Below are positions 1-31,060 of a DNA stretch of 35,976 nucleotides, in pieces; positions within the stretch are counted from its first letter, which is position 1; each line of letters begins with the position of its first letter. The position numbers were made by a program, and so were the translations under genes. Under the pieces are notes generated by a model. That model had not been told where the DNA came from and ran no database searches. It saw only the letters and a list, made by a program, of their open reading frames with translations. This stretch comes from a virus, in IMG/VR virus record IMGVR_UViG_3300025770_000830, positions 1 to 35,976 of that record. The stretch is one strand, 5' to 3'.

Positions 1-1431
1 GTGGAGAAATTGGATCAAAAGGAATCAAAGGTCTATGCGAGTCCTGGGGATCCAAATATAAAACTAGATACCAGGACCTCACCGGAGTCTAAAATAAACT
101 TGCCGTTAAATGAACGTCGTGACGTTAGATCAAATTGGTATAAAGGTGGAACACAGACAACGGATGAAAAACGTGAAATTGAGAAAAAATATGACGCAAC
201 CGTAATGACCGGTCCACACCCACCTACTGCTGAATACGGTAAAGCAACAGAAGATTTTAGAACATTTAAACGAACATATGATGACGCGTTGAAAAGACTT
301 GATGTAAAGACGGAACCTGCAATATTGAATAATATCAAGGAAGCAGGAGTTCTTGCGGTGTTATCAAGTGGGCGAAGTTCCTCCACGGCCATGCAGGAAC
401 TTATAGATAGGGAGCAAAAAAGTAAAACTCCAGGTGCGGATAAGAAATTCTACGATAAGGTGTCACAGAAATATGATAAACAATATGAACATAATATTGG
501 ACATCTTAATAAAAAGAAACTACCTGATTATTCCAAAGATGATCAAACACTGAGGATTGATGGATATAACACAAAGACGGTCGAACCCAATAGTGTAACA
601 AATCAATGGAAATATAGAAATGAAGATTTTATTCCGTTGTATTTTCATGATTTGGTCAATAAAAAATTTATTCCATTTAGGGCATTTCTAGGCTCGGTAT
701 CCGAGGGGTCAAATGCAACATGGTCGGAGGTACAATATTTGGGCAGGGCAGATAAGGTGTATGTATATGGGGGGTTTACACGGACATTGACGATGGACTT
801 CAATGTACAGGCCTTTAGTATTGAGGAATTACATCCTATGTGGCAACGAATTAATTATTTGGTGGGGTTGACCAAACCGGCCGCATATACTGGTGATGTT
901 TCATTATCATCGATGGAGTCGTTTATAATTCCACCATTTGTTAAGTTACGTTTGGGGGATATGTATAGGAATCAACCGGTGCTGATTACAGATGTAACAA
1001 CAACGATTCCAGCAGAGGCCTCCTGGGAACTTGTGTCAAATGAACATGGGCAAAAAAATAACTATGATTATTTAAATGGGTCGATTGTTAGGAAGGGTGT
1101 GAGGTCCGCACAATATCCCACTATGGTAAATATGAGTGTATCTATGACGTTGCTTGAGAAAAAGGCCCCGCAGACCATAGCAAGACACTTTGGGGATTCT
1201 ACAGTGGAGAGCATTCATGACTCGGAGGACAACTCACTACCACAGGGTGATTTTAATCATCAATTAATTCACTATGAGGTAGATAACACCGATGCGGAAT
1301 TGGCAGTACCGTCAATGGGGGTGAGTAATACAGACCAAATCGCAAATGACAAATTTAATTCCGCATCGGAGGATGCCACCGCAAATTTCAATAAACTTCG
1401 GTCAAAATATGAAAAACTCGCAGACCAATAG
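1..1431 (+). CDS. Tail/baseplate structural protein (5' end at window edge)
   Basis: The frame is open from the first base, which is a GTG. The true start may lie upstream, so the 476-residue length is a minimum. The first 190 or so residues are charged, Lys/Asp-rich and look flexible. From about residue 200 to 390 the sequence becomes a compact, aromatic-rich segment (FIPLYFHDLV, YVYGGFTRTL, ELHPMWQRINYL, PPFVKLRLGDMY, IPAEASWELVS) of the kind seen in baseplate or tail-tube-associated proteins of contractile-tailed phages. The last 80 residues are again polar. The next gene is a LysM/gp53-like baseplate protein only 3 bases downstream, which supports a baseplate role. T4 gp48/gp54-type tube-initiator or wedge proteins are candidates, but no exact family could be fixed by eye. 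The coding call is firm and the function is inferred from context. Confidence 0.6.
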   Translation: MEKLDQKESKVYASPGDPNIKLDTRTSPESKINLPLNERRDVRSNWYKGGTQTTDEKREIEKKYDATVMTGPHPPTAEYGKATEDFRTFKRTYDDALKRLDVKTEPAILNNIKEAGVLAVLSSGRSSSTAMQELIDREQKSKTPGADKKFYDKVSQKYDKQYEHNIGHLNKKKLPDYSKDDQTLRIDGYNTKTVEPNSVTNQWKYRNEDFIPLYFHDLVNKKFIPFRAFLGSVSEGSNATWSEVQYLGRADKVYVYGGFTRTLTMDFNVQAFSIEELHPMWQRINYLVGLTKPAAYTGDVSLSSMESFIIPPFVKLRLGDMYRNQPVLITDVTTTIPAEASWELVSNEHGQKNNYDYLNGSIVRKGVRSAQYPTMVNMSVSMTLLEKKAPQTIARHFGDSTVESIHDSEDNSLPQGDFNHQLIHYEVDNTDAELAVPSMGVSNTDQIANDKFNSASEDATANFNKLRSKYEKLADQ

Positions 1432-1434
1432 AAT

Positions 1435-1728
1435 ATGAGATATAAAACTGCAAAGTCAAAGTCAAATGAAGTTGGTAAGAAGATACTTACTACAACTTTG
1501 TATCCTAGAGTAAAACACCGTAGTACGGATACGTTTTTGATTATGGTCGAAAAGACTAGACTTGATCACCTTGCACATAAGTTTTATGAAAATGCAAATC
1601 ATTGGTGGATAATAGCAATTGCGAATAATATAAAAGGGACGATGTATGTGAACCCTGGAGTGCAGATAAGAATTCCCAGGGACATAGGAAGTGTTCTGCA
1701 TGATTACAACAAAATAAATAAAAGATAA
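1435..1728 (+). CDS. LysM / gp53-like small baseplate wedge protein
   Basis: A 97-residue protein. After a basic N-terminus of about 30 residues it has a LysM-like core: TRLDHLAHKFYENANHWWII, then an Asn-rich turn and NPGVQIRIPRD. This matches the pattern of phage tail protein X and T4 gp53-like proteins (a D-x-L-A-x-K-F-Y opening, W-W-x-I-A-x-A-N middle, and G-x-x-I-x-I-P ending). In contractile tails these small LysM proteins join baseplate wedge and hub. It starts 3 bases after the upstream stop without a clear Shine-Dalgarno, so translation is probably coupled to the preceding tail gene. The LysM assignment rests on motif shape alone. The baseplate role follows from family knowledge plus its place between two structural genes. 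Confidence 0.7.
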   Translation: MRYKTAKSKSNEVGKKILTTTLYPRVKHRSTDTFLIMVEKTRLDHLAHKFYENANHWWIIAIANNIKGTMYVNPGVQIRIPRDIGSVLHDYNKINKR

Positions 1729-1739
1729 GGGTTATACGT

Positions 1740-4529
1740 ATGTCACTATTTGATGACGCATTAGGAGGGATAAAGGACAAGGTTTCTGGACTGCTTGGGG
1801 GTTTGGGTGAGAATAAGAGTGTGAGCAATCTGCTCGGCGGATCGTTCGGTGGACTGTCGGAGGCCTTCGATGGGATATACGATGCAGTCTCCGGAATTTT
1901 CAAACCTCAATTTGAAACTATGGCAGAGGCCGAGGATGCATTGTTTAATGAACAACCAACGGCACCTGCACCGGGTAGTATATACGAATCAAGTGTACAG
2001 GATGCCGAGTCTCATTCAAGTTATGGGGATATTCTCATGGTCCGAAGTTTTGTCCGAAATGAACTTGCAAATCGTGAACGTGATTTTGGTTTATATTACA
2101 CAAACTCCGGTGAGGCCGCAGAGGGGGTAACCGATGATCCCAATGAAGCATATACAGGAGAAATATATAGAGGTCCCAGAAGTGCGTGGGTGAGACTCTG
2201 TTCAAACTCTATGTTTCAACCCGAGGGAACGAATGAGAAATATGAAGGGTTTATTATACACGGAGTGAATGATTTTGATGATGTATATGGGTTTGGTCCA
2301 GATGCAACACGTGAGGAGACAACCAATGTTATTGGATATGATGTACATGGAAAGCAACACGTGGTTCATGAAAAGATGTTTCATCACAGGCCCTGTCCAG
2401 GAATTACAGGAGTTGACTCCAGTGTTGTGGATAATATGCACAACGGCCGTGAGTCAACGATTAACATTACGTGCTGGAGCAGATCGCAATTGGATTACCT
2501 CCAACCATATTTTTTCAATCCAGGTATAACTGTTGTGTTAGAGTGGGGGTGGAATAATTACCCACGTGGTTCACTTATAGATTTGACGGATATAGGAAAG
2601 GCCGTTGATGATGAATCTGCGGCCGATTTCCTCGATTTTGATTTTGATGATGATGCGGAGTCTTCGGGTCTAATGGGGTTACATTATGATGTTCAGCACG
2701 GAAATAAGCATATTATGAATGGTAGAGGGAATTATATGTACCTTATAGGAATGATAACCACCTTTGATTATTCAATTCGTGATGATGGGGGGTATGATTG
2801 TAAGGTTCAAGTAAAAAACGTTGCCGCTCTTGCCCATGATCAAAAAACCAAGAATGGTAAAAAGACATGTGGTGGTTCAGACCTTACTCCAGATACCGAT
2901 GATGAAGAAGATGCAACCGAGGATTTCGAAACAAGGGAAGAGGATTTTGTGGATTTTTGTGAAAAGCATTTGACGGACTATCTTGATGAAGATGACGATG
3001 AGGAGGGTGTGGATGTGACATGGGGCCGAGGAGGAGAATATATGACGGACAGAAACAAGGGTAAAATCACAAGAGGCAGATATTTTACACCAGATACACT
3101 GGATGCAAAGGCAAGTTATGAATTTGGTTACGGTTTTAAATCTTATTATATAACATTTGGACTTTTTATTGATTTTGTTAATGAGTTTTATGGAAAATCT
3201 GGATTTGCAGCCAACGGTGCCGAGACAACATTGTTCAAATTTACATGTGAACGAACTAGGTGCGCTGCACACCCCAATATAAAATCGCTGAATGGTGACG
3301 TATTACTGATACCCAATTCTACTTCACCCCGAAGAAATGGTGGGTCCAGCACCGCACTTCCGAATGTGATTTCATCTTCATCCAGGGGGATCTCAACCGC
3401 GGAGTTAAAGTCGGTCATGATGGCACAGGGAACACACGAAGCAGCCACGGCTACGAGTTTAGCAGATGCGTTGGCAATTTCACCAAGGGATGATTTGTTT
3501 GGGATTTTGGCAACCAAGGCAATTGCTCAGGGGAATAAACGACAAGTTTTTGATTATGTTACGGAGCAATCCACAGGAAAACTTAAGAAGAGACGGATAT
3601 GGGAAAAGGCAGTTAAACCATTTCCTGATTACGTAAAAGGATCCGGTGGGTATTCTGGTAGACTTAAGGATTTGTTTGTTAATGTTGAAATAATTAAGGA
3701 TGCGGTATCCACTTCGACTGAAGTTAAGGGTTTTTTGACAAACATTTTGAATAAAATGTCGGAAGCTTCCGGTGGGTTGTGGAGTTTTAATCTTGGTGCA
3801 GAGGATAAATCCGTACCAAATTGTCCGGTTACGGCAATAGTTGATAAGAATTATACAGGACTCGGTTCTACGGATGAAAAGCAACGAAGTGGAGAGGTGT
3901 ATACGTTTAACTCACATGTAAAGAATAGTATTGTAAAGGGGATGTCAATGTCTGTGGAATTGTCTGGAGAGGTAGCAACTGAAGTTATGGGTTCTGCAAG
4001 CACCAAGAATGTGAGCAAGGAAACCCGTGCGTTTTTTACTCGGTCAAAGGATAGGATTCTTGCTCAACCAAGACCGAATTTGTGTGGAGATACTAAGTCG
4101 TCCGCAAAGAGAGAGGAAAAGGATGACATAGAGGAGTCTGAAAAGTATATTATATTGAAGGAAATTCAAGTACAGGTTAAAAAGAGTATAACTGAATGGG
4201 ATGGAGTGGATGATAGGGAGATAAAAATTGAGATGGTGGATACGAATTCGGGTCGGGCTTTGAAGTCTATGCGGAGTGATAAAAATCCCCAAAATAACGT
4301 AAATTACAATGGACCAGTTAATCCTATTAAGTTGGAAATAACATTAATGGGAATTGCCGGATTTCGTGTGATGGAGTCTTTTAATTGTACGGGAATACCA
4401 ACTCTATATTTTACCCGAGGATTTTTCACCGTCAATGGAATAACAGACTCCATAGCAGACAATAATTGGACAACCACGATTGAGGGGTTATTTGTCCAAA
4501 ATTCAAACGAACCAAAGAAAAATGAGTAA
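1740..4529 (+). CDS. Large tail/baseplate hub-type structural protein
   Basis: A 929-residue protein starting at an ATG preceded by AAGGG and the recurrent GTTATA leader (1727-1736). The N-terminal 40 residues are Gly/Ser-rich with an amphipathic stretch. Around residues 235-285 there is a segment with the motif TVVLEWGWNNYPRG, which resembles a recurring EWGW motif in hub-type structural proteins of myoviruses. Two very acidic stretches lie near residues 295-310 and 380-425, and Ser/Thr-rich regions follow. The C-terminal 200 residues look beta-rich and globular (IKLEITLMGIAGFRVM, IPTLYFTRGFFTVNG). It lies between the LysM-like baseplate gene and a further small structural-looking gene. A virion baseplate/hub role is likely but the exact T4 counterpart (gp27-like or wedge) is not determined. 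No lysozyme or peptidase motif was recognised. Confidence 0.6.
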   Translation: MSLFDDALGGIKDKVSGLLGGLGENKSVSNLLGGSFGGLSEAFDGIYDAVSGIFKPQFETMAEAEDALFNEQPTAPAPGSIYESSVQDAESHSSYGDILMVRSFVRNELANRERDFGLYYTNSGEAAEGVTDDPNEAYTGEIYRGPRSAWVRLCSNSMFQPEGTNEKYEGFIIHGVNDFDDVYGFGPDATREETTNVIGYDVHGKQHVVHEKMFHHRPCPGITGVDSSVVDNMHNGRESTINITCWSRSQLDYLQPYFFNPGITVVLEWGWNNYPRGSLIDLTDIGKAVDDESAADFLDFDFDDDAESSGLMGLHYDVQHGNKHIMNGRGNYMYLIGMITTFDYSIRDDGGYDCKVQVKNVAALAHDQKTKNGKKTCGGSDLTPDTDDEEDATEDFETREEDFVDFCEKHLTDYLDEDDDEEGVDVTWGRGGEYMTDRNKGKITRGRYFTPDTLDAKASYEFGYGFKSYYITFGLFIDFVNEFYGKSGFAANGAETTLFKFTCERTRCAAHPNIKSLNGDVLLIPNSTSPRRNGGSSTALPNVISSSSRGISTAELKSVMMAQGTHEAATATSLADALAISPRDDLFGILATKAIAQGNKRQVFDYVTEQSTGKLKKRRIWEKAVKPFPDYVKGSGGYSGRLKDLFVNVEIIKDAVSTSTEVKGFLTNILNKMSEASGGLWSFNLGAEDKSVPNCPVTAIVDKNYTGLGSTDEKQRSGEVYTFNSHVKNSIVKGMSMSVELSGEVATEVMGSASTKNVSKETRAFFTRSKDRILAQPRPNLCGDTKSSAKREEKDDIEESEKYIILKEIQVQVKKSITEWDGVDDREIKIEMVDTNSGRALKSMRSDKNPQNNVNYNGPVNPIKLEITLMGIAGFRVMESFNCTGIPTLYFTRGFFTVNGITDSIADNNWTTTIEGLFVQNSNEPKKNE

Positions 4530-4923
4530 TAACGAAGATGTAGATGTTTATAATGTGCTCTCAAGGCACAATACTGGATTTTATTCGCAAACACCAAAGG
4601 TGTATTTACCGACTCCCGGGCCCCCGGATTACTTTGATGGTTATATTATGCGATTTTTTATACAACGGGGAAACGATAGAAACGGACCAATTGTTGAGAT
4701 AAGTGAACACTCGGCAAAGTTATTCAAAGATAACCCATTTTATACAAAGGTATCGATAAGTTGGAAGATTACTGGACCACCGAACACGATAACTCGTGAG
4801 GGAGTGGAGCATGAAGAGGGTGTTTCGGAACACAATTATAGACGGGCAAATCTTGCAAATGAAACTATAATGGGGATTGGTGATAAACTATCCGATGTAT
4901 ATCAATTTTATAAACCGAGTTGA
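4522..4923 (+). CDS. Small protein of unknown function, probably virion-associated
   Basis: The chosen ATG at 4522 overlaps the end of the upstream tail gene (stop 4527-4529) and gives 133 residues; an upstream in-frame start would only add residues translated inside the neighbour. The sequence begins MSNNEDVDVYNVLSRHNTGF, has a Pro/Gly loop near residues 26-34 (PTPGPPDYFDGYIMRFF), a central part that looks like beta strands, and ends in a helical segment (MGIGDKLSDVYQFYKPS). No catalytic motif, signal peptide or membrane segment is visible. Overlap with and position after three tail genes suggest a baseplate or tail completion protein made with them, but I do not recognise the family. Confidence 0.6.
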   Translation: MSNNEDVDVYNVLSRHNTGFYSQTPKVYLPTPGPPDYFDGYIMRFFIQRGNDRNGPIVEISEHSAKLFKDNPFYTKVSISWKITGPPNTITREGVEHEEGVSEHNYRRANLANETIMGIGDKLSDVYQFYKPS

Positions 4924-4948
4924 CAAATTATAATTTATATCGTATTAT
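4920..4948 (+). promoter_or_regulatory. Sigma70-like promoter, transcript predicted to start at the polymerase ATG
   Basis: TTGACA (4920-4925) is a perfect -35 box, separated by exactly 17 bases from TATTAT (4943-4948), one mismatch from the -10 consensus. Seven bases past the -10 box is 4955, the A of the polymerase start codon, so the mRNA would be leaderless. No Shine-Dalgarno lies upstream of 4955. Seen directly; activity is inferred. Confidence 0.6.
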
Positions 4949-4954
4949 ACTACT

Positions 4955-6250
4955 ATGCGATTTGTTGAAACTGGGGAAGATGTAAAGGCCCTACTTGGTG
5001 AATTAAGTGATGGTGAGTGCTTTCTGCATTTGTTTTGGAGATATGATTCTCATCCGGTGAAGAATGAGCCACTTGTATTGCTGATTCAACATTATAGTAC
5101 AGACGAGGTGTATGTTGTTTCGTTTTCGCATCCTGATGTTATTCCGGCAAAACTAACTACCTTGCAGTTGATTGCCAATACTCCATGTAAGAAATACGTG
5201 ATGAATCGCAAGGATATGTTGCATTTGGTGGAGATGAAGAATTGCGTGGATGTTGGGTTAGGGATATATGCCGAAACGTTGAAGACAATTGGACTTGAAA
5301 AATTCCGATACAAAGACATCCGTTCCGTCCCGATAATGAGGATAATTAAAAGTTTCAAGGATACGTCCAAACTTTTTTCTTCTCGTATTAAATCATTGGA
5401 TACGAACATGATTCGGTACGAAGCAGACTTCTCTGTTGTACTAAAGGAGATTGAGGAATCGGGAATCTATGTGACCGACTTTACCTTGGGTGACAAATCG
5501 TTAGTGGACGAGCACGGATTGGTGCATAGTCAGTATAATATGTTCACTCCCGCAGGAAGACCGAGTAATCGGTTCGGTGGGGTCAATTATGCGGCGTTAA
5601 ACAAGAAGACGGGAGACCGAGATTGCTTTGTCAGTAGATATGGCAAGGATGGTGCGATTGTGATGATGGACTATGAAAGTTATCATTTACGTCTGATAGG
5701 CAATCATGTAAATTTTGATTTACCCGATGAATCTCTACATGAATATTTAGGTAAGTTGTATCACGGAAAGGACGAATTAACCAAGGAAGAGTATGATTTA
5801 TCCAAGAAGATAACTTTTAATCTGATTTTCGGTGGAATTACTGATGATGTGAGGGACAACGTACCTTTTATGGCAAGAATTGCAGACTATGTGGACAAGA
5901 CATGGGAGAAATATCAACGGAACGGATATGTGGAGACTTGGTATTATAATAGAAAACTGAACTCATCGATATTTGATGAACAAACAAATTCTTACAAGGT
6001 ATTTAACTATTTGCTCCAATCCGCCGAGACCGAACGCAATTGCGGAATAATGCGTAGGATTTTGGACTATTTGAAGGGAAAGGACACTAAGTTTTTTCTA
6101 TACACATACGATGCGTTTTTGTTTGATATACCCAAGCACGAATTCATAGAGGTTAAAAATCTTGCGGAAATAATGCGTGAAGGAAACAAATTTCCCATCC
6201 GAATGGAAGTCGGTGGAAACTACGGAGATTTGCGAGAAGTGAGAGTTTAG
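4955..6250 (+). CDS. Divergent, compact family A DNA polymerase (PolA-like)
   Basis: A 431-residue protein with the landmarks of a DNA polymerase I palm: TPAGRPSNRF (198-207, the T-x-T-G-R-x-S region), motif A DYESYHLR (239-246), motif B KKITFNLIFGG (284-294), a Q-S-A-E-T-E-R-N helix (about 355-362) and motif C YTYDAFLFDIP (383-393). The N-terminal 150 residues look like a degenerate 3'-5' exonuclease fold without its acidic motifs. Several normally invariant residues differ: the motif A steric-gate Glu is His244, motif B Tyr is Phe, and motif C His-Asp-Glu is Tyr-Asp-Ala. Full enzymes are 600-900 residues, so this is short. It may be the replicative polymerase of a T4-like phage that lacks PolB, a repair enzyme, or partly inactive. 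Both metal-binding Asp candidates (239, 386) remain. Family call is good, activity uncertain. Confidence 0.8.
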   Translation: MRFVETGEDVKALLGELSDGECFLHLFWRYDSHPVKNEPLVLLIQHYSTDEVYVVSFSHPDVIPAKLTTLQLIANTPCKKYVMNRKDMLHLVEMKNCVDVGLGIYAETLKTIGLEKFRYKDIRSVPIMRIIKSFKDTSKLFSSRIKSLDTNMIRYEADFSVVLKEIEESGIYVTDFTLGDKSLVDEHGLVHSQYNMFTPAGRPSNRFGGVNYAALNKKTGDRDCFVSRYGKDGAIVMMDYESYHLRLIGNHVNFDLPDESLHEYLGKLYHGKDELTKEEYDLSKKITFNLIFGGITDDVRDNVPFMARIADYVDKTWEKYQRNGYVETWYYNRKLNSSIFDEQTNSYKVFNYLLQSAETERNCGIMRRILDYLKGKDTKFFLYTYDAFLFDIPKHEFIEVKNLAEIMREGNKFPIRMEVGGNYGDLREVRV

Positions 6251-6300
6251 AATTATTGCGACATATTTATTGGTAACACAACACCAAAGGTTATGTACGC

Positions 6301-6696
6301 ATGAATACACAGTTACTATGCACATTCAGCACCACGGACGATTACACGGCCGTCGTGGACGAGATTACCAAGTTTTATGATGTGTTGTTTGGGAAGGTCT
6401 ACGTTTTGCAAAATAGAGATGACTTGGATAGTTTGATGTTGACTTACAACATTGATCCAAGTAGAGTTAATGGAAATATGTTTTATACGGACACAATAAG
6501 TGTTCATCGAAAAAAAGATTCCAATACAATATACACGATAAATTCATTGAATGCATTGATAAAAGATTTGAACGGCGGCCGGGTCGACCACCATTTTTCG
6601 GTGGATTGGGATCAATATAGAAATACTATTTTACTGACGGACGAATCTTCGTATAAGGAGATTCCGACAAAATTATACAAAATTATCAATATTTAA
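6301..6696 (+). CDS. Conserved-looking phage protein of unknown function
   Basis: A 131-residue soluble protein beginning MNTQLLCTFST, preceded by AAAGG (6286-6290) and the recurrent GGTTATG leader. It has no Cys-rich, membrane or catalytic motif. The N-terminal half reads as an alternating beta/alpha fold (VVDEITKFYDVLFGKVYVLQ, DDLDSLMLTYNID) and the C-terminal half includes a helix (SLNALIKDLNGG) and strands. Small proteins of this look occur among T4-like marine phages, but I cannot name a function. It sits between the polymerase and the kinase gene, each with its own leader. Confidence 0.65.
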   Translation: MNTQLLCTFSTTDDYTAVVDEITKFYDVLFGKVYVLQNRDDLDSLMLTYNIDPSRVNGNMFYTDTISVHRKKDSNTIYTINSLNALIKDLNGGRVDHHFSVDWDQYRNTILLTDESSYKEIPTKLYKIINI

Positions 6697-6749: not shown

Positions 6750-8858
6750 ATGCATATGGAAAATAAAAAAGAATCTTCGGAAACCGAGTCTAAAAAGACT
6801 AAGAGTTTAGCATCCATCATTAAACGGGAGAACAAGGAAGCAGTTTCCGACTACCGCAACTTAAATTGGACGGGTACGTTTTGGGAATACTTGGAGTTGG
6901 TGGAACTCAATCCAAAGGTTGTACGGAACGCATATCAGAGATTGTTTGATATGATTGCGTCACATGGGACGGAAGAAGTTGAGTACTGCAAGAGAAAACA
7001 CATCAAGTACAATTTTTTTAAGGACAAGGGAGACATCTCCATTTATGGATTGGAAGAAAACCTAATGGAACTTATGGACACCCTCAAGAGTGCAAGTCGG
7101 CACTATGGACCAGAACGTCGTGTACTTCTTCTACACGGTCCAGTTGGTAGTAGTAAGTCGACAATTGTGACTGCGATAAAGAAGGGTCTTGAGGAATATT
7201 CAAGAACGGATGATGGTGCGTTATATAGTTTTAGTTGGAAAACAACTGACGATGAAGGCAAGGAGGAAATAGTCCCATGTCCAATGAACGAAGAACCTCT
7301 TAAGTTGCTTCCCGATAATGTAAGAGAGCAGATCGTAGATAAACTGAATCAGCTTATCGGTGAAGGTGAATATCAGATCAAACTTGATGGTGCATTAAAC
7401 CCAGTTAATGAATTTTATTATGGTAACTTAATGGAAAAATACAAGGGTGACTATCGCAAGGTTCTTGACCATGTTATTATTCGTAGAGTCGCACTTTCCG
7501 AAAAGAACCGAGTCGGAATAGGAACTTTCCAACCCAAGGACGAGAAGTCACAAGATGCAACCGAACTTACGGGTGACATCAATTATCGCAAACTTGCGGA
7601 GTATGGAAGTGAAAGTGACCCGCGTGCGTTTGACTTTGACGGAGAGTTCTTGGTAGCAAATCGAGGCCTCATCGAATTTCAGGAAATCCTTAAGTTGCAA
7701 ACTGAGTTCTTGTATGACTTGTTGGGTGCAACTCAAGAGCATCGTGTCAAACCACGTCGTTTCAATCAAGTTCCCATTGATGAAGTTATTCTTGGTCATA
7801 CCAATAATGCCGAGTTTGAAAAACTGAAGAACAATAAATTTATGGAAGCACTTAGAGATAGAACAATCAAGGTGGACATTCCATATCTGTTGAAGGTATC
7901 GGAAGAGCAAAAGATTTACGACCACTTCTATAATGAGAAGTCGGTAAACAAGCACATTGCACCCCACACGACTTTCTTGGCTGCATTGTTTGCAGTTGTG
8001 AGTCGGTTGGAGGAAAGTTCCAAGCATGACATGAGCATAATCCAAAAGGCAAAGTTGTATGATGGTAATGCGGTTCATGGTTTCACGTCGGAACACGTGA
8101 AGGAAATGATGGAAGAGAGTCCAGCAGAAGGGTTATACGGAGGGGTTTCCGCACGATTTATACAGAATCAGTTCAGTAATGCCATCGTCAATCCAAGAAT
8201 GGGCGCAAAGAGTTTAAATCCCTTCATGTTGTTTGCTCAAATCCGAGAGGGTCTTAAGAGTTATAGTGGATTTCAGAGTGAGGATCAAAAGAAGGGTATG
8301 ATGGAACGTCTTGAACTCGTTGAAAAGGAATATGATAGAATTGTGAAAAGAGAAGTACAACAAGCACTTAGTAGTAGTGAAGAGGCAATCAAGGCACTTT
8401 GCACAAACTACATTGACAACATTGTAGCATACATCCAAGACGAGAAGGTTAAGAACCCTGTCACAGGAAAAGATGAGCAAGCAAACGAACAATTGATGCG
8501 TAGCATTGAAGAAAAGATTGGAATCTCCGAAGGTATGAAAGATGATTTCCGCAGAGAAATCATGAACTACATGGGTGGACTTGCCGCGAAAGGCAAAGAG
8601 TTCAAGTATTCTTCCAACGAACAATTGCTCAAGGCACTCGAAAAGAAGTTGTTTGAGGATACCAAGGATAGCATCAAGTTGTCTGCTCTTGCTCAAGATA
8701 CCGCAACCGTGGTTGACAAGGAACTTCTTGAAAAGATTGATGCACTCAAGCAAAGACTTATTAACTCTTTTGGATATGACGAAGATAGTGCTTCCGACGT
8801 CCTCACTTATGTAGGCAGTATTTTTGCCCGAGGTGACGTTGAAGAAGACGAGGATTAA
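6750..8858 (+). CDS. prkA: PrkA-type AAA+ serine protein kinase
   Basis: A 702-residue homologue of bacterial PrkA/YeaG. N-terminal WTGTFWEYLELVELNP (40-55) matches the PrkA opening. The Walker A is GPVGSSKST (130-138). Further PrkA signatures are FDFDGEFLVANRGLIEFQE, a FLYDLLGATQEH stretch, LGHTNNAEF and EALRDRTIKVDIPYLLKV. PrkA is known as a stress-responsive Ser/Thr kinase and, in Bacillus, is also reported to act as a Lon-like protease. The protein is longer than E. coli YeaG (about 644), with a helical, charged C-terminal extension. AAGG (6742-6745) could serve ATG 6750 or, with better spacing, ATG 6756, so the first two residues are uncertain. It heads a three-gene run with yeaH and spoVR, the same partners as in bacteria. 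In a phage it may rewire host stationary-phase or stress signalling (inference). Confidence 0.93.
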   Translation: MHMENKKESSETESKKTKSLASIIKRENKEAVSDYRNLNWTGTFWEYLELVELNPKVVRNAYQRLFDMIASHGTEEVEYCKRKHIKYNFFKDKGDISIYGLEENLMELMDTLKSASRHYGPERRVLLLHGPVGSSKSTIVTAIKKGLEEYSRTDDGALYSFSWKTTDDEGKEEIVPCPMNEEPLKLLPDNVREQIVDKLNQLIGEGEYQIKLDGALNPVNEFYYGNLMEKYKGDYRKVLDHVIIRRVALSEKNRVGIGTFQPKDEKSQDATELTGDINYRKLAEYGSESDPRAFDFDGEFLVANRGLIEFQEILKLQTEFLYDLLGATQEHRVKPRRFNQVPIDEVILGHTNNAEFEKLKNNKFMEALRDRTIKVDIPYLLKVSEEQKIYDHFYNEKSVNKHIAPHTTFLAALFAVVSRLEESSKHDMSIIQKAKLYDGNAVHGFTSEHVKEMMEESPAEGLYGGVSARFIQNQFSNAIVNPRMGAKSLNPFMLFAQIREGLKSYSGFQSEDQKKGMMERLELVEKEYDRIVKREVQQALSSSEEAIKALCTNYIDNIVAYIQDEKVKNPVTGKDEQANEQLMRSIEEKIGISEGMKDDFRREIMNYMGGLAAKGKEFKYSSNEQLLKALEKKLFEDTKDSIKLSALAQDTATVVDKELLEKIDALKQRLINSFGYDEDSASDVLTYVGSIFARGDVEEDED

Positions 8859-8879
8859 TTTGGATTCTTCGACTACCAC

Positions 8880-8889
8880 TATTTATAAT
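8880..8889 (+). promoter_or_regulatory. TATTTATAAT motif abutting the yeaH start
   Basis: TATTTATAAT ends 4 bases before the yeaH ATG and no Shine-Dalgarno is present. The same ten bases lie directly before the ATGs at 21601 and 23458. The likely reading is a phage promoter -10/late-promoter element giving a leaderless or nearly leaderless mRNA. No good -35 box was found. Confidence 0.45.
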
Positions 8890-8893
8890 CGTT

Positions 8894-10039
8894 ATGCCAT
8901 CACGCAGAGTCAGAGAAGACCACAAGGAATATAGAGATATCGTCAAGGGAAACGTTGACGAGAAGTTAAAGAAACATATTAAGGGTGGTCAACGGATAAC
9001 AAGACGAGGCAAAGACTTCGTGGTGGTTCGTGTACCTCATGTGGAATTACCGAATTTCAGATTTGGAAGACCATCGAATGGAGAGGGTATAGGAAATGGT
9101 GAAGCTGACGTCGGTGATGAGGTCGGTGACGGTCCACCACAAGATGGTGGCAACGAACCAGGTGAAGGTGGAAATGGAGATGGAGAACATGAAATAGATG
9201 TTGGGATAAGCATGGATGCTTATTTTGACATGATAGGTGAAGAACTTCAACTTCCAAATCTACTACCAAAGGAAAATGGTGACTTGGTGAAGGAGAAAAT
9301 AAAGTGGAATCGCATTGCCAAGGTCGGAAACAACAGTCTCCTCCACAAGAGACGAACACTCAAGAATGCGTTTAAACGAATTATCTCCGTTGGAGAATTT
9401 GATCCAATGGATGTATCAAACGTATATCCAATTAAGGAAGATATGGAATATAGAAGTTGGAGCTCCGTTGAAGTTCCAGATACCAACGCAGCTATCTTTT
9501 TTGTTGCGGACATATCCGCAAGCATGAGTCAAGACAAACGAGACTTAATCAGAGAGTTATGTTGGTATTTGGAAAATTGGATTGAAAGGTTTTATCAAGA
9601 AACTCAGAGGAAGTATATCGTCCATGATCATGTTGCCCAAGAAGTCGACCAAGAGAAATTCTACAAGTATCAGAGTGGTGGTGGAACTCAAATCAGTAGT
9701 GCGTTTGAATTGGTGAATGATGTCATAGAAAAAGCATTTCCATTGAACGAGTGGAACATTTACGTATTTTATTTAAGTGATGGTGAGAACTTTGGTGATG
9801 ACAACGAATTGTGTGTTGAACATCTTAAGAAGATGCAAAAGTATGCCAATTTAATTGGAATCACCGAGGTAAAGGCAGTTCGTAGCTGGGCAACTTTCCT
9901 ACCTCACATAAAAAATCGGATTAATAGTGGGTCACTAGACCCCAGTAAAATAGCAACGGCATCAATCGAAGGACCAGGTGACGTACTCAAGGCATTGCAG
10001 ACTTTGCTGACCCCCGCAGAGGATGAAGTTCCGTTTTAA
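8894..10039 (+). CDS. yeaH: YeaH/DUF444 von Willebrand factor A-like protein
   Basis: A 381-residue member of the DUF444 (YeaH) family, partner of PrkA in bacteria. The N-terminus RRVREDHKEYRDIVKGNVDE and RITRRGKDFVVVRVPHVELP matches the YeaH opening. Residues 60-100 are a Gly/Asp/Asn-rich linker. The VWA domain carries a MIDAS DISAS (206-210) after a hydrophobic strand and the GGGTQISSA segment (262-270). A short C-terminal tail follows the VWA domain. E. coli YeaH is about 427 residues, so this copy is somewhat compact. No Shine-Dalgarno precedes the ATG; a TATTTATAAT box ends 4 bases upstream. DUF444 proteins are thought to be substrates or adaptors of PrkA. The gene follows prkA by 35 bases and leads into spoVR 9 bases on. 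Function in the phage is unknown. Confidence 0.93.
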   Translation: MPSRRVREDHKEYRDIVKGNVDEKLKKHIKGGQRITRRGKDFVVVRVPHVELPNFRFGRPSNGEGIGNGEADVGDEVGDGPPQDGGNEPGEGGNGDGEHEIDVGISMDAYFDMIGEELQLPNLLPKENGDLVKEKIKWNRIAKVGNNSLLHKRRTLKNAFKRIISVGEFDPMDVSNVYPIKEDMEYRSWSSVEVPDTNAAIFFVADISASMSQDKRDLIRELCWYLENWIERFYQETQRKYIVHDHVAQEVDQEKFYKYQSGGGTQISSAFELVNDVIEKAFPLNEWNIYVFYLSDGENFGDDNELCVEHLKKMQKYANLIGITEVKAVRSWATFLPHIKNRINSGSLDPSKIATASIEGPGDVLKALQTLLTPAEDEVPF

Positions 10040-10048
10040 GGATTGGTT

Positions 10049-11614
10049 ATGGGAATAGCATGGGAAAGTGACAAACTCCAACAAGGTGTATGCAAGGAAT
10101 TGGCAGAGCAAATTCCCGATGTACTCAAGGCATGTTCGGATAATGGACTTGATCCATATCCTCTATGTATTGAAGAATTTGATGCAGATGAGATTGTTGA
10201 GATTGCGGCGTATGGTGGATTCCCAGTAAGGTATCCACACTTCTCATTCGGACAGCAGTTTGAACAATTACATCATCAGTATCACCACGGCATGGGCAAG
10301 ATTTATGAGATGGTGGTCAATACAGATCCAACTTATATGTACTTGCAGAGAAATAATCCGTTGGTGGATAATTTGACGGTGGTTGCCCATGCAACCGCAC
10401 ATAGTGATTTTTTTAAGAACAATATTATGTTCAAACACACGAATCGGAACATGATGAACGTAATGGCAAACCATAGTCATAAGATACGCAAGTACATGGA
10501 TAGGTTCGGTAGGAAGAAGGTTAAGGATTTTCTTAATGCGGCTCTTGCTGTTGGTGATTTGATTGATCCATCCTTGTGCTATCGTGAAAGTACGTGGAAA
10601 AAATCAAGGAAGTTTAATTTTGAGGATAGAAAACCACGTGAACACGTTTCACGAATTGAAACAAAAGAGTATATGGACAAGTGGGTAAACCCACAAGAAT
10701 ATATTGATAAGCAACGACGTGACCGAGAGGAGAAGCATAGACTAGCAGAGAATAAATTTCCAGTTCGCCCCGAGCGCGATATTATGTTGATGATAATTAA
10801 TTTTGTTCGGCTTGAACCCTGGCAACAAAATATTCTTAGCATGATTCGAGACGAGTCTCTATACTATCGTCCACAAGGAATGACCAAGGTTCTTAATGAG
10901 GGGTGGGCAAGTTATTGGGATTCTTATATTATGGCATCATGTAATTTTGCAGGAGATGAAGGAATCTTTGATTATGCAAAACATCATGCAGGTGTCCTCG
11001 GCGGAAAATATAACATGAACAACCCATATAAACTTGGGAATACTTTGTTGCGTGATATTGAAGATCGATGGAACAAGGGTAGATTCGGCACGGAGTATGA
11101 AATGTGCGAAGATGCCGAGAAACTTAGGAATTGGGATTTGAAGTTAAACAAGGGGCGTGAGAAGTTATTTGAAGTGCGTGAGAACTATAACGATGTTACC
11201 TTCTTGAACGAATTTTTCACCCGGGATTTTTGTGATAAGTACAAGTATTTTGAATATGCGTTGGATAAGGACACCAACAAATATGTGGTTGTTAGTAAAG
11301 ACCACAAGAAAATCAAACAGAAGTTGATTGACAGACATGTGAACATGGGGATGCCAGTTATATACATGGAGAACATGAAATACAATACGCATGAGATTTT
11401 ACTTAGACATGAGTTTGAAGGAAGACCATTGGATTTGAAATATGCAACGGGAACGATGGCATATCTCCACGAGATTATACAGAAACCGATTAATATTTTG
11501 ACAAACGACGTCATGGAAGAAGGTTACGGTAGTGAAAAGGAAACGGTTGAAGTTGAGGTTAGGTATCGTTATGAAAATGGTGAGATGAAACGATACGAGG
11601 GTAGCAAAGTTTAA
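10049..11614 (+). CDS. spoVR: SpoVR/YcgB-family protein
   Basis: A 521-residue SpoVR-family protein. AAGG at 10038-10041 supports ATG 10049 rather than the TTG two codons upstream. Family signatures include LEPWQQNILSMIRDESLYY, GMTKVLNEGWASYWDSYIM, HHAGVLGGKYNMNNPYKLGN, the FFTRDFCDKYKYFEY segment and FEGRPLDLKYATGTMAYLHE near the C-terminus. Length is close to E. coli YcgB (about 510). SpoVR is needed for Bacillus spore cortex formation and is widespread in non-sporulating bacteria, where it is usually linked with prkA and yeaH; its biochemical activity is not settled. The conserved HHxx and NEGWA regions look intact. Its presence downstream of prkA-yeaH means the whole bacterial triad has been retained as a unit. 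Confidence 0.94.
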   Translation: MGIAWESDKLQQGVCKELAEQIPDVLKACSDNGLDPYPLCIEEFDADEIVEIAAYGGFPVRYPHFSFGQQFEQLHHQYHHGMGKIYEMVVNTDPTYMYLQRNNPLVDNLTVVAHATAHSDFFKNNIMFKHTNRNMMNVMANHSHKIRKYMDRFGRKKVKDFLNAALAVGDLIDPSLCYRESTWKKSRKFNFEDRKPREHVSRIETKEYMDKWVNPQEYIDKQRRDREEKHRLAENKFPVRPERDIMLMIINFVRLEPWQQNILSMIRDESLYYRPQGMTKVLNEGWASYWDSYIMASCNFAGDEGIFDYAKHHAGVLGGKYNMNNPYKLGNTLLRDIEDRWNKGRFGTEYEMCEDAEKLRNWDLKLNKGREKLFEVRENYNDVTFLNEFFTRDFCDKYKYFEYALDKDTNKYVVVSKDHKKIKQKLIDRHVNMGMPVIYMENMKYNTHEILLRHEFEGRPLDLKYATGTMAYLHEIIQKPINILTNDVMEEGYGSEKETVEVEVRYRYENGEMKRYEGSKV

Positions 11615-12809: not shown

Positions 12810-13634
12810 ATGGCTATTGACTTAGACAAAATTAAATCGAGACTTTCAAGTCTCGCACAGAGCAACAACCGCACGAACTATCAGTGGAAACCCCAACCGG
12901 GTAAGCAACAAGTTCGTATTGTTCCCTACAAGCATCAACCCGATAATCCGTTCATTGAACTGTATTTTCATTATGGTATCAACAATCGGACTTATCTTTC
13001 CCCTGTATCATTTGGTCGACCAGACCCAATCGTAGAGTTTGCGGAAAAGTTGAAACGCAGTGGTGACAAGGATGACTATCGTATGGGGCGTTCTTTAATG
13101 CCCAAGATGCGTACGTTTGTCCCCGTTATTGTTCGTGGGGAAGAAGCAGAAGGAGTAAAGTTCTGGGGATTCGGAAAGGAAGTTTATCAAGAACTTCTAG
13201 GAGTAATCGCAGATCCCGACTACGGAGACATCACAGACCCTACAAATGGTCGTGACATCACCATCGAGTTCCTTACTGCTGAAGAAGCCGGTCGCTCGTT
13301 CCCAAAAACCAATATTCGTGTAAAACCGAATACGTCTCCCATCTCGGAAGACAAAAATGTTCTCACTAATGTTTCCACCAACCAAACTGAGGTAACGGAA
13401 ATTTACCAAGAACTCAGTTATGATGAGTTGAAGGAAGCATTGGAGAAGTGGGTGAGTGGTGAATCGGAAGATACACCCCCCGCAGAGTCCGTTGAAACTG
13501 GAACTGACGTTACGGTTGAATCCACGGAAACTAAGGTTAAGCATCCCACAGGTGCCACTACTGAAAAGAGTGGTCTAAACACAGCAGCCACAGAAGATGT
13601 GGAGGCTGCGTTTGAAGAGTTGTTTAAGTCTTAA
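12810..13634 (+). CDS. gp32-like single-stranded DNA-binding protein
   Basis: A 274-residue protein resembling T4 gp32-type SSBs of marine myoviruses. After a short N-terminal helix (AIDLDKIKSRLSSLAQ) comes the OB-type core with VRIVPYKHQPDNPFIELYFH, SFGRPDPIVEFAEKLKRSG, MRTFVPVIVRGEE and GVKFWGFGKEVYQELLG. The C-terminal 75 residues are Ser/Thr/Glu-rich and end in an acidic helix (DVEAAFEELFKS), the usual protein-interaction tail of SSBs. The protein contains no cysteine, so it lacks the zinc site of T4 gp32. It is followed by a strong hairpin and then uvsX, the classic replication/recombination pairing. It coats ssDNA and organises UvsX, helicase and polymerase at forks. Confidence 0.85.
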   Translation: MAIDLDKIKSRLSSLAQSNNRTNYQWKPQPGKQQVRIVPYKHQPDNPFIELYFHYGINNRTYLSPVSFGRPDPIVEFAEKLKRSGDKDDYRMGRSLMPKMRTFVPVIVRGEEAEGVKFWGFGKEVYQELLGVIADPDYGDITDPTNGRDITIEFLTAEEAGRSFPKTNIRVKPNTSPISEDKNVLTNVSTNQTEVTEIYQELSYDELKEALEKWVSGESEDTPPAESVETGTDVTVESTETKVKHPTGATTEKSGLNTAATEDVEAAFEELFKS

Positions 13635-13683: not shown

Positions 13684-13715
13684 TTATGGTTTGTTCTGTA
13701 AAAAGGAAAATACAT

Positions 13716-14876
13716 ATGGCGAAAAAGAAAGAAGTTAAGCCTACAAGCAAGTCGGATGATCTCGCAACGGTCCTTGCCGAAAGTTTGAATAAGGCATATA
13801 AGGATGAAGGCAAGGTTGCCTTTTTCTTGAGTGAGGGTGATGACCCCTCACTTATTACCGATTGGATCTCAACTGGTAGTAGTCTTCTTGACTTAGCCAT
13901 CTCCAATCGTCCTGACGGAGGAATTCCCGTTGGTAGGATTATGGAAATTACTGGACTTGAGCAAAGTGGCAAGAGTCTAGTGTCAGGTCATTTGCTTGCA
14001 TCTACTCAAAAGAAGGGAGGTGTTGCGGTATTGATTGATACCGAGACAAGTGTATCTGCGGAATATTTGAGGGCAATCGGTGTGGATACGGACAAACTTT
14101 TGTATGTACACGTGGACACAGTTGAAGATATTTTTGCAACGATTGACAATATCATAGCAACAATTAGAAAGTCCGACAGGGATAGACTTGTTACGATTGT
14201 AACGGATAGTGTTTCCGCCGCATCAACCAAAGTTGAGATGGCCACGGATTACACCAAGGATGGATATGCCACCACCAAAGCAATCCTAATCAGCAAGGCA
14301 ATGAGAAAACTGACCTCCACGATTGGACGTCAAAGAATTGCACTTGTGTTTACCAACCAACTCCGTCAGAAGATGGGAGTTATGTTTGGTGATCCGTGGA
14401 CTACGAGTGGTGGTAAAGCACTTGCTTTCCACGCAAGTGTTCGTGTGCGACTGAAGAACCTTGGACAGATTAAACAAGGGTCTACAACCGAGGTCATCGG
14501 AAATAAGTGCGAGGCAACCGTAGTTAAGAATAGAATGGGCCCACCACAACGTAAGGCCGCATTTGAGATTTATTTCAACCGAGGGGTTGATGATATTGGA
14601 AGTTGGATAAACACACTGAAGACTCACAAGATTTTCAAGCAAGGGGGTGCATATTATTCCTATACCGATGACAAAGGAAACGATCATAAGTTTATGGCAA
14701 AGGATTTTCCCGAAATGCTTCGGGACGAAGAACTCAAGAAAGAACTTTATCAAAAGATTTGTGACAAGACTATCATGGAATACTCCACCGCAAATAGTGT
14801 GGTGGACGAGGACGTGGAGTTTGAGGGTAATGATGAAATTGCCGAAAAAGAATTGGCCTCCGTTGATAATGAGTGA
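13716..14876 (+). CDS. uvsX: UvsX/RecA-family recombinase
   Basis: The start at ATG 13716 is chosen because AAAAGGA (13701-13707) sits at proper spacing; an upstream in-frame TTG would begin inside the hairpin. This gives 386 residues. The RecA core has Walker A GLEQSGKS (80-87) after PVGRIMEITG, an E-T sensor (VLIDTETSVS), a Walker B-like strand (LVTIVTDSVSAAS), and the L2-adjacent FTNQLRQKMGVMFG and GGKALAFHASVRVRL segments. The C-terminal tail is acidic. It forms filaments on ssDNA coated by the gp32-like SSB and drives strand exchange and recombination-dependent replication. Its length is like T4 UvsX (391). It overlaps the next gene by 8 bases. Confidence 0.93.
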   Translation: MAKKKEVKPTSKSDDLATVLAESLNKAYKDEGKVAFFLSEGDDPSLITDWISTGSSLLDLAISNRPDGGIPVGRIMEITGLEQSGKSLVSGHLLASTQKKGGVAVLIDTETSVSAEYLRAIGVDTDKLLYVHVDTVEDIFATIDNIIATIRKSDRDRLVTIVTDSVSAASTKVEMATDYTKDGYATTKAILISKAMRKLTSTIGRQRIALVFTNQLRQKMGVMFGDPWTTSGGKALAFHASVRVRLKNLGQIKQGSTTEVIGNKCEATVVKNRMGPPQRKAAFEIYFNRGVDDIGSWINTLKTHKIFKQGGAYYSYTDDKGNDHKFMAKDFPEMLRDEELKKELYQKICDKTIMEYSTANSVVDEDVEFEGNDEIAEKELASVDNE

Positions 14877-15951
14877 TAAGACTCGCATATTTAGTTTGTT
14901 CGAAGAATTCAGTGAAGAGCAGAAGAACGAATTAAGTCATGACCGACACTTGAACAGTGATGCCCTCTTGATAGATGGGATGAACACTTTCATGCGAGTC
15001 TGGACAATGTACCCAACCACGAATGATAACGGTGAACACATTGGTGGATTTACTGGATTTCTAAAGAGCATAGGACATGCAATTCGGTTACTCAAACCCT
15101 CAAGGTGTATAGTTGTGTTTGATGGCAAGGGGGGAAGTCAACGGAGGAGGAAGATTTTCTCAGACTACAAGATGAAAAAGAATGTGAGGTTTCGTGTAAA
15201 CCGAGCAATGAGTCTAGATATGAATCGTGATGAAGAGTCGGATTCAATGAAAACTCAAATCGTTAAATTGGTTCAATATCTGAATCTATTACCAGTTACG
15301 ACAATATGTGTGGATAATGTCGAGGCAGACGACGTGCTTGCGTTCCTGGCATTGTCAAAGTTTGAGATGAATGGAAACAAGTCAACTATAATGAGCACGG
15401 ACAAGGACTTCCTTCAGTTGGTGAGTAACAAGACTTCGGTGTACAGTCCTACGAAACGAACTATTTACGTACCAGAAAAGGTAAATCATGAATATGGCAT
15501 TCATCCGAACAATTTTTTGTTGTATAGAATGATTGATGGTGACCGTGGTGATAATATCGATGGTATAAAGGGTGCGGGTGATAAGAAAATTAAAACTGCA
15601 TTTCCGTGCCTCGCAGATGAACAAGAAGTGCTACTTTCGGAATTGGAGACGATTGCCACGCAGAATGCGAAGAAAATGCCGTTTTATAAGACTTTTCTAA
15701 CGGAAGAGAATCAGAAACTTTTAAAACGGAATCGCAAGTTAATGCAATTGACCGACACTATTTTACCCGCAAGTATGCAAACCAAGATACTTGATCATGT
15801 GGATACACCCGTAACTCAATTAAATAAATTTGAGTTCAGTAAAAAGTTCGCAGAAGACCAAGCTTGGGCTGCGTTTCCCAATCACCATAACTGGCTTATG
15901 GAAACTTGGACTGTTCTGAACAACTACGCAATTTCCGACTCTTCGGTATAA
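14869..15951 (+). CDS. RNase H / 5'-3' exonuclease (FEN/PIN family)
   Basis: ATG 14869 overlaps the uvsX stop and gives 360 residues. The PIN-like nuclease motifs are in order: ALLIDGMNTFMRVW (32-45), IVVFDGKGGSQRRRKI (81-96), a VEADDVLAFLAL acidic pair, MSTDKDFLQLV, and the helix-hairpin-helix region MIDGDRGDNIDGIKGAGDKK. These are the acidic metal-binding clusters of T4 RNase H and PolA-type 5' nucleases. It would remove RNA primers and flaps during lagging-strand synthesis. This complements the upstream polymerase, which lacks a 5' nuclease domain. The C-terminal 100 residues are less conserved and may contact SSB or clamp. Confidence 0.9.
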   Translation: MSDKTRIFSLFEEFSEEQKNELSHDRHLNSDALLIDGMNTFMRVWTMYPTTNDNGEHIGGFTGFLKSIGHAIRLLKPSRCIVVFDGKGGSQRRRKIFSDYKMKKNVRFRVNRAMSLDMNRDEESDSMKTQIVKLVQYLNLLPVTTICVDNVEADDVLAFLALSKFEMNGNKSTIMSTDKDFLQLVSNKTSVYSPTKRTIYVPEKVNHEYGIHPNNFLLYRMIDGDRGDNIDGIKGAGDKKIKTAFPCLADEQEVLLSELETIATQNAKKMPFYKTFLTEENQKLLKRNRKLMQLTDTILPASMQTKILDHVDTPVTQLNKFEFSKKFAEDQAWAAFPNHHNWLMETWTVLNNYAISDSSV

Positions 15952-16016: not shown

Positions 16017-17426
16017 ATGACCGACTCTAACAAGGACGAAATCGATACTCTTCAAAAATACGGAACTGCGTTCCAGGGCAAGACAATACGAGCCCTGATA
16101 GATGATAAGGGATTTCTAGAAAGAACCCATGACATTATTGACCCGGAGTATTGGGAGAGTGAACCACACAAGTGGATTGTTTCGGAAATTTTGGATTATT
16201 TCGGAATTTACAAAAGAACAATCACCTTAGATGTATTTAAAATTAAGGTAGGGGACTTGGGGATTGAAGTTCTCAAGGCTGCTATAATAGATCAACTCAA
16301 GCACATATTTACGAAGGTTGATTTGAATGACACCGAGTTTGTTAAAGAGGAATTTTTAACTTTCGGTAAGAATCAGAAATTAAAGAACGCAATCATAACG
16401 AGTGTTGATTTACTGAAACTTGGTCAATACGACTCAATCAAGAGAACCGTAGATGATGCAATGAAGGCGGGAACGGAACGGAATCTCGGACATGACTATA
16501 TGGAAGGCCTTGATGAACGAATGTCCGAATCTGCAAGGGAAACCGTACCAACTGGATGGGATGTGATAGATGATTTGACCGGCACAGGATTGGGCCCAGG
16601 AGAACTTGGGGTAATTATTAGTAGTGCAGGTGGCGGTAAGAGTTGGTGTCTTGCTCATCTTGGCAAGGAAGCAATGAAACGTGGAAAGAACGTATTACAT
16701 TACACTCTTGAGTTAAACGAGTGTTACGTGGGATTGCGTTATGATAGTTGTTTTGCGAATATACCATTTCAAGAAATCGTAGAGAATATTGAAAAGGTGA
16801 GGGCAGTTATCGGTGGAATTACTGGTAATCTTCTCATTAAGGAATACCCCACGAAAAGTGTGGGTGTATCAACCATTCTTGCCCATGCGAATTTGGCAAG
16901 GACAATGGGATATGGTGTGGATATGATTGTTGTGGATTATGCGGATATTTTATCTCCGGGTAACGTAGGTAACAATTCAAACACATACGTTGAACAAGGA
17001 AGTATTTATGAAGACCTTAGAGGTCTTGCGGGGGAACTAGGTGTCCCCGTTTGGACGGCAAGTCAAGCTAGTCGTTCATCGTTGGATGATAATATTATTG
17101 AGGCTCAGAAGGTTGCGGATAGTTATCGTAAGATAATGACGGCAGACTTTGTTATGAGTTTATCAAGAAAGGCATCTGACAAAGTTAGTAACACGGGTCG
17201 TTTCCATGTGATCAAAAATAGATTTGGTCCGGACGGAATGACTTTTCCAAGTAGAGTAGATACCTCAGCTGGCATGATTGAGATATATGATGAAAAAAGC
17301 ACTAATGGTGCAGAAATAATGGTCGAAATGAATAATGCGGATAATACTGCACAGGGGGCATTACGACAAAGATATAATCAGATGAATCAAGCACAAGATG
17401 GAGAAGAACTCGAAGAACTTGGATAA
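16017..17426 (+). CDS. Replicative DnaB/gp41-family DNA helicase
   Basis: A 469-residue hexameric helicase homologue. The N-terminal 150 residues are helical, as in the DnaB N-domain. The RecA-like ATPase begins at VPTGWDVIDDLTGTGLGPGE, followed by Walker A SSAGGGKS (202-209), the segment VLHYTLELNECYVGLRYDS, Walker B DMIVVDYADIL, and an Arg/Gln-rich sensor strand VPVWTASQASRSS. The end is Gln/Asn- and Glu-rich. It unwinds DNA at the replication fork, probably loaded onto SSB-coated DNA as T4 gp41 is. No primase or loader gene is in the window. It has its own 65-base leader after the nuclease gene. Confidence 0.92.
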   Translation: MTDSNKDEIDTLQKYGTAFQGKTIRALIDDKGFLERTHDIIDPEYWESEPHKWIVSEILDYFGIYKRTITLDVFKIKVGDLGIEVLKAAIIDQLKHIFTKVDLNDTEFVKEEFLTFGKNQKLKNAIITSVDLLKLGQYDSIKRTVDDAMKAGTERNLGHDYMEGLDERMSESARETVPTGWDVIDDLTGTGLGPGELGVIISSAGGGKSWCLAHLGKEAMKRGKNVLHYTLELNECYVGLRYDSCFANIPFQEIVENIEKVRAVIGGITGNLLIKEYPTKSVGVSTILAHANLARTMGYGVDMIVVDYADILSPGNVGNNSNTYVEQGSIYEDLRGLAGELGVPVWTASQASRSSLDDNIIEAQKVADSYRKIMTADFVMSLSRKASDKVSNTGRFHVIKNRFGPDGMTFPSRVDTSAGMIEIYDEKSTNGAEIMVEMNNADNTAQGALRQRYNQMNQAQDGEELEELG

Positions 17427-31051: not shown

Positions 31052-31060
31052 AACTCAATT

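Follow-up and report, generated by a model that had tools for sequence, protein, structure and literature searches.

A compact, exonuclease-dead divPolA1 polymerase with a rebuilt nucleotide site heads a replication gene run in a phage genome fragment

The gene at positions 4955-6250 of the window, that is, of the whole 35,976-nucleotide stretch of viral DNA analysed here, belongs to divPolA1, a branch of family A that is divergent, confined to phages and carried there as a second polymerase. Its nucleotide site is rebuilt throughout the family, with a histidine at the steric gate, a tyrosine in place of H881, usually a tyrosine in place of R754 and an invariant new glutamate at position 852 (motif numbering is that of E. 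coli Pol I). The gene heads an operon-like run comprising a 131-aa neighbour, a single-strand DNA-binding protein (SSB), UvsX, a 5'-nuclease and a helicase, and we favour the reading that its product is an active accessory polymerase for short, non-proofread synthesis beside a separate full polymerase. The features on which the argument draws are the following.

4955..6250, + strand: divPolA1, compact exonuclease-dead family A polymerase, 431 aa (Pfam, motif alignment, AF2 model, homology to immuto35A_1)
4955..5329, + strand: vestigial 3'-5' exonuclease-like domain, residues about 1-125, without conserved acidic residues (column conservation, model, superposition)
5669..5692, + strand: motif A, D239-Y-E-S-Y-H244-L-R, with the catalytic Asp retained and His in place of the steric-gate Glu (His in 63/63 and 47/47)
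5792..5833, + strand: motif B, Y280...K284...F288...F292-G, R754 replaced by Tyr, K758 and F762 kept, Y766 replaced by Phe (both censuses)
6107..6115, + strand: motif C, Y385-D386-A387, with the catalytic Asp retained, Tyr in place of His and Ala in place of Glu (both censuses)
6301..6696, + strand: 131-aa obligate neighbour, ferredoxin-like secondary-structure order, conserved HRKKxxNTxYTIN (linkage counts, model)
12810..13634, + strand: gp32-like single-strand DNA-binding protein (PF08804; phrog_1192)
13686..14876, + strand: UvsX/RecA recombinase (PF00154; phrog_97)
14668..15951, + strand: 5'-3' exonuclease of the Pol I 5'-nuclease / T4 RNase H type, as its own gene (PF02739, 1.5e-29; phrog_107)
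16017..17426, + strand: DnaB/gp41-like replicative helicase (PF03796; phrog_19)

The open reading frame is intact and starts with ATG. Its Pfam match to DNA_pol_A (7.6e-8) lies under the gathering score and aligns the C-terminal residues 307-424 only, while phmmer against PDB sequences returned weak matches to Pol I enzymes. Structure prediction and superposition had been proposed in the earlier note; the AF2 model, built with 47 aligned relatives as input (pLDDT 93.4, pTM 0.91), superposes over residues 1-428 on Pol I large fragments (best Z 28.9, to M. smegmatis Pol1, rmsd 3.6 Å over 408 residues; about 28.5 to Bst), and its best structural matches are DNA polymerases. The motifs hence align structurally with those of family A, the exonuclease fold is present and the thumb is reduced: the 408 model residues align across a 567-residue large fragment, a truncated thumb is present and only two helices (127-142 and 150-169) precede the palm. 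The modelled divPolA1 is thus a Pol I large fragment in fold, its exonuclease domain dead and its thumb reduced, and the earlier description of a compact family A polymerase with two metal-binding aspartates is borne out, D239 and D386 both being kept. Synonymous sites are saturated while dN is 0.18-0.45, so that the gene is under strong purifying selection and is not decaying.

The exonuclease domain is indeed degenerate, as had been suspected. PF01612 does not match the 431-aa protein and, across residues 1-125 of 47 relatives, no acidic column is conserved at 90% or more, though the AF2 model and the structural alignment still show the inactivated fold there. As the sequence alignment of the exonuclease motifs is unreliable (T7's own residues were misaligned), the verdict rests on column conservation and structure; the loss of conserved acidic residues agrees with the published replacement of all three catalytic Asp of the exonuclease in divPolA1 (PMC11348598). 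The proposal that the enzyme depends on a separate 3'-5' exonuclease found no backing. Searches with PF00929 and PF01612 for a stand-alone proofreading exonuclease returned nothing convincing in Microcystis phage Mel-JY01 or in the closest four of the long contigs, no more than the domain belonging to the canonical PolA in Flavobacterium phage immuto, and a single DnaQ-like match in the uncultured 484-kb LR756508; neither profile, nor PolB, has a match inside the 36-kb window. The separate nuclease of the operon is a 5'-nuclease (PF02739), not a 3'-5' exonuclease. The analogy drawn with a split PolA in phage RM378 also fails, since RM378 has no family A match and its split polymerase is of family B (PF00136 at 79977-81137, PF03104 for the exonuclease part). 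An RM378-type split polymerase was accordingly rejected for the window, which has no PF00929, PF01612 or PolB match; the two systems are alike in placing polymerase and exonuclease functions on different genes and in having their own 5'-nuclease gene.

The active site was read from an alignment including E. coli Pol I, T7 gp5, SPO1 gp31 and other phage PolAs. In the window protein, D239 corresponds to D705, H244 to E710 (the gate Glu), Y280 to R754, K284 to K758, F288 to F762, F292 to Y766 and Y385-D386-A387 to H881-D882-E883, so that the histidine gate and the Tyr-Asp-Ala of motif C first noticed in the sequence are real. Like E. coli Pol I and Bst Pol I, the protein keeps D705, D882, K758, F762, R668 and Q849; unlike them, it shows Glu710 to His, Arg754 to Tyr, His881 to Tyr, Glu883 to Ala and Ala852 to Glu, is exonuclease-dead, has a reduced thumb and spans only 431 aa. 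It therefore lacks the features of a canonical proofreading PolA, with His244 and Tyr-Asp-Ala instead of a Glu gate and His-Asp, and no active exonuclease.

These changes are not peculiar to the window. Among 63 full-length relatives, D705, K758, F762, R668, Q849 and D882 are kept in 63/63, and E710 to His, H881 to Tyr and A852 to Glu are likewise each found in 63/63; R754 is replaced by Tyr in 55 of the 63 (Arg in 6) and E883 by Ser or Ala in all 63, whereas Glu710 and His881 are present in each of the seven comparison sequences. Because E883 is also Ser in SPO1-type canonical phage PolAs, the change of Glu to Ala alone is unremarkable. As the search pattern of the first scan contained the gate histidine, the census was repeated on 47 further relatives from loci found through the 131-aa protein, recruited without any polymerase motif, and here again the His gate, Tyr-Asp, Glu852 and K758 were each found in 47/47; ascertainment bias as the source of the invariant histidine is thereby ruled out. 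Both censuses taken together, the canonical Glu gate is absent from 110/110 relatives, whereas D882 and K758 are invariant (63/63 and 47/47) and D705 is present in every sequence resolved. Position Y766 is Tyr in 62/63 and 47/47, the window protein being the only distinct sequence with Phe (F292). Glu710 to His, His881 to Tyr and the new Glu852 are family invariants, and they are new here: the main text of PMC11348598 makes no mention of steric gate, glutamate or histidine, and a literature search found no paper in which E710 is named together with R754 or H881, or a histidine together with the gate.

Yutin et al. (2024, Virol J 21:200, PMC11348598) described divPolA1 from 14 phages, which encode a regular polymerase of family A, B or C besides, as a divergent PolA followed by conserved replication genes, with immuto protein QQO91919 as exemplar. 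The window protein matches immuto35A_1 by tblastn (E 7e-42, 26% over residues 33-422, 90% of its length) and shares its invariant motif columns, and homologues covering most of the query in annotated collections come from the Flavobacterium phages immuto and from Mel-JY01, then LR756508. Homology over about 90%, the inactivated exonuclease domain, the small thumb, the palm Asp and the following SSB, recombinase, 5'-nuclease and helicase are all common to the window and immuto, and the window gene, like that of immuto, is probably the second polymerase of a phage in the 155-190 kb class; the window differs in its divergence (about 26-27% identity between the two proteins), in Phe at Y766 and in a PrkA-DUF444-SpoVR cassette between partner gene and SSB. 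divPolA2 of the barbaviruses is similar as a divergent PolA beside a PolB and without 3'-5' exonuclease, but, by description, it has an unrelated N-terminal globular domain and a variable neighbourhood (PMC11348598), whereas the N-terminus of the window protein superposes on the exonuclease domain of Pol I and its neighbourhood is conserved. The family is far larger than published, extending from 14 phages to hundreds of environmental contigs, at least 585 of which carry it (585 of the 600 matches listed in a divPolA1 pattern scan). By contrast, 84,980 cellular genomes gave only seven matches, all in MAG contigs and probably binned phage.

The 131-aa gene is strictly linked to divPolA1, and it is not singled out in the main text of PMC11348598. 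A homologue lies downstream of divPolA1 in 69/69 loci whose downstream sequence runs to at least 2.5 kb, a count that takes in near-identical contigs; in the reverse search, divPolA1 lies upstream of the 131-aa gene in 54 of 80 loci, the remaining 26 having less than 2.5 kb of upstream sequence. Six of 50,697 phage records contain the 131-aa protein (four immuto records, Mel-JY01 and LR756508), and the same six carry divPolA1 homologues with the Tyr-Asp-Ala motif. The model of the protein, which is of high confidence (pLDDT 92.8), has a beta-alpha-beta ferredoxin-like arrangement, with no PDB match by Foldseek at E <= 0.001, a best Z of 6.2 in a VIA search, which yields no convincing solved relative, and one match among viral structures, an uncharacterised phage protein. 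No convincing PHROG was found for it.

SSB, UvsX, 5'-nuclease and helicase follow in the order conserved with divPolA1, and ribonucleotide reductase is also among the genes downstream of divPolA1. Among long relatives the nearest is G005, whose genes correspond one by one to those of the window over positions 1-23883 (about 24 kb), with 49% identity for divPolA1, 58% for the partner and 70-85% for the downstream replication genes. Over positions 1-6696 identity to G005 is 30-58%, and genes after 6750 (to 17426) are mostly at 70-85%; this step at 6696/6750 may be a recombination junction or reflect faster evolution of the upstream block, divPolA1 and partner included. Immediately beyond it, at 6750-11614, lies the complete PrkA kinase - DUF444 (YeaH-like) - SpoVR cassette, found only in the window's clade (L001-L009, L016-L020), bar one partial PrkA-like match in L080. 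Further along, an acyl-CoA dehydrogenase adjoins an L-serine dehydratase (29198-32416, full-length Pfam matches), an unusual metabolic cargo for a phage, and a NusG-like transcription factor stands at the contig end (35399-35974).

Regarding the second polymerase, the earlier note had remarked that the window has no PolB. This holds for the 36 kb, itself a fragment, and is an effect of fragmentation, G005 having a PolB of about 837 aa. The search for PolB beyond the window, which the note had also called for, was run in relatives, covering families A and B, and found another full polymerase in 11/11 related records of at least 129 kb: ten PolB (G005-G009, G028-G030, Mel-JY01 and LR756508) and one proofreading PolA, that of immuto (777 aa, PF00476 7.8e-58, PF01612 5.5e-13, adjoining GroES/GroEL). 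Related records without a second polymerase are fragments under 100 kb. Since the syntenic G005 and all 11 long records carry one, the window phage probably encodes a full polymerase outside the fragment. In LR756508, PolB matches extend over two long frames of 1022 and 625 aa (260623-266900), possibly reflecting an intein, an intron or a split gene. In Mel-JY01, PolB has neighbours with the annotations HolB ATPase and clamp loader A subunit, and G005 and G007 have gp44- and gp45-type homologues near PolB, which suggests that PolB is the replicase bound to the clamp. The PolB of G007 also has a UvsX homologue and a helicase beside it and the 2024 paper leans the opposite way, hence we infer this role rather than assert it.

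On these grounds, divPolA1 would be catalytically active and would take on short, non-proofread synthesis left undone by a clamp-bound PolB, together with the SSB, UvsX, 5'-nuclease and helicase encoded in its operon. A Klenow-like enzyme that lacks proofreading and a Pol I-type 5'-nuclease in one gene run look like a split Pol I, and gap filling next to the 5'-nuclease, extension of UvsX-made D-loops (recombination-primed synthesis) and Okazaki maturation are the best-supported candidate jobs. The 131-aa protein may be a cofactor that helps in binding DNA or the SSB. That PolB sits with clamp and clamp-loader homologues, and divPolA1 with the SSB-UvsX-5'-nuclease-helicase group, speaks for this accessory role, and the faster divergence of divPolA1 and its partner relative to the downstream replication genes suits it, although such divergence also fits a dispensable role. 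Against it, an enzyme with Tyr for H881, Tyr for R754 and a reduced thumb might have hardly any polymerase activity left, and the division of labour is not uniform, as the G007 arrangement illustrates. More tentatively, divPolA1 and the 131-aa protein might be the two obligate parts of one accessory polymerase, its nucleotide site reprogrammed by the His gate, the Tyr at H881 and Glu 852, acting with the separate 5'-nuclease as a phage split Pol I or accepting unusual or damaged nucleotides.

The opposite assignment, in which divPolA1 is the main genome replicase and the full PolB, PolA or PolC has a secondary job, is close to where gene context leads the 2024 paper (PMC11348598). divPolA1 does head the conserved SSB-UvsX-nuclease-helicase run, as that paper also reports, and the regular polymerase differs in family between genomes; we nevertheless judge it unlikely, as divPolA1 has neither a proofreading domain nor a stand-alone proofreading exonuclease that could be found, its thumb is reduced, its sequence diverges more quickly than the other genes of the run, and it is PolB that clusters with clamp and clamp-loader homologues. 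The non-replicative option of the earlier note is supported in so far as divPolA1 is probably not the main replicase.

That the His gate and other changes widen the substrate range, making a nucleotide-relaxed enzyme (rNTP-tolerant, primer-making, translesion or RNA polymerase), is less likely still. The canonical Glu gate is lost in all relatives and gate mutations in family A enzymes relax sugar choice, as in E615G of Taq, with Gly at the gate (PMC4215692), but known gate mutants carry small residues and not one as bulky as His, the family mostly retains F762 and Y766, and the top structural matches are DNA polymerases. Furthermore, immuto has its own DnaG primase, and replacement of a missing primase by divPolA1 is rejected for that phage. 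Pseudo-enzymes usually lose catalytic residues first, and a catalytically dead, structural pseudo-polymerase organising operon proteins on DNA, for which the missing equivalents of H881, R754 and E883, the lost exonuclease and the strict pairing with the small protein would speak, is very improbable with D882, K758 and D705 so conserved.

The reading we favour, an active accessory polymerase, bears on a question raised in 2024, namely why a second, proofreading-dead PolA is kept beside a complete PolB replicase. As the His gate is invariant across the family, a single-residue test is possible, and the 131-aa protein is a concrete candidate subunit for divPolA1.
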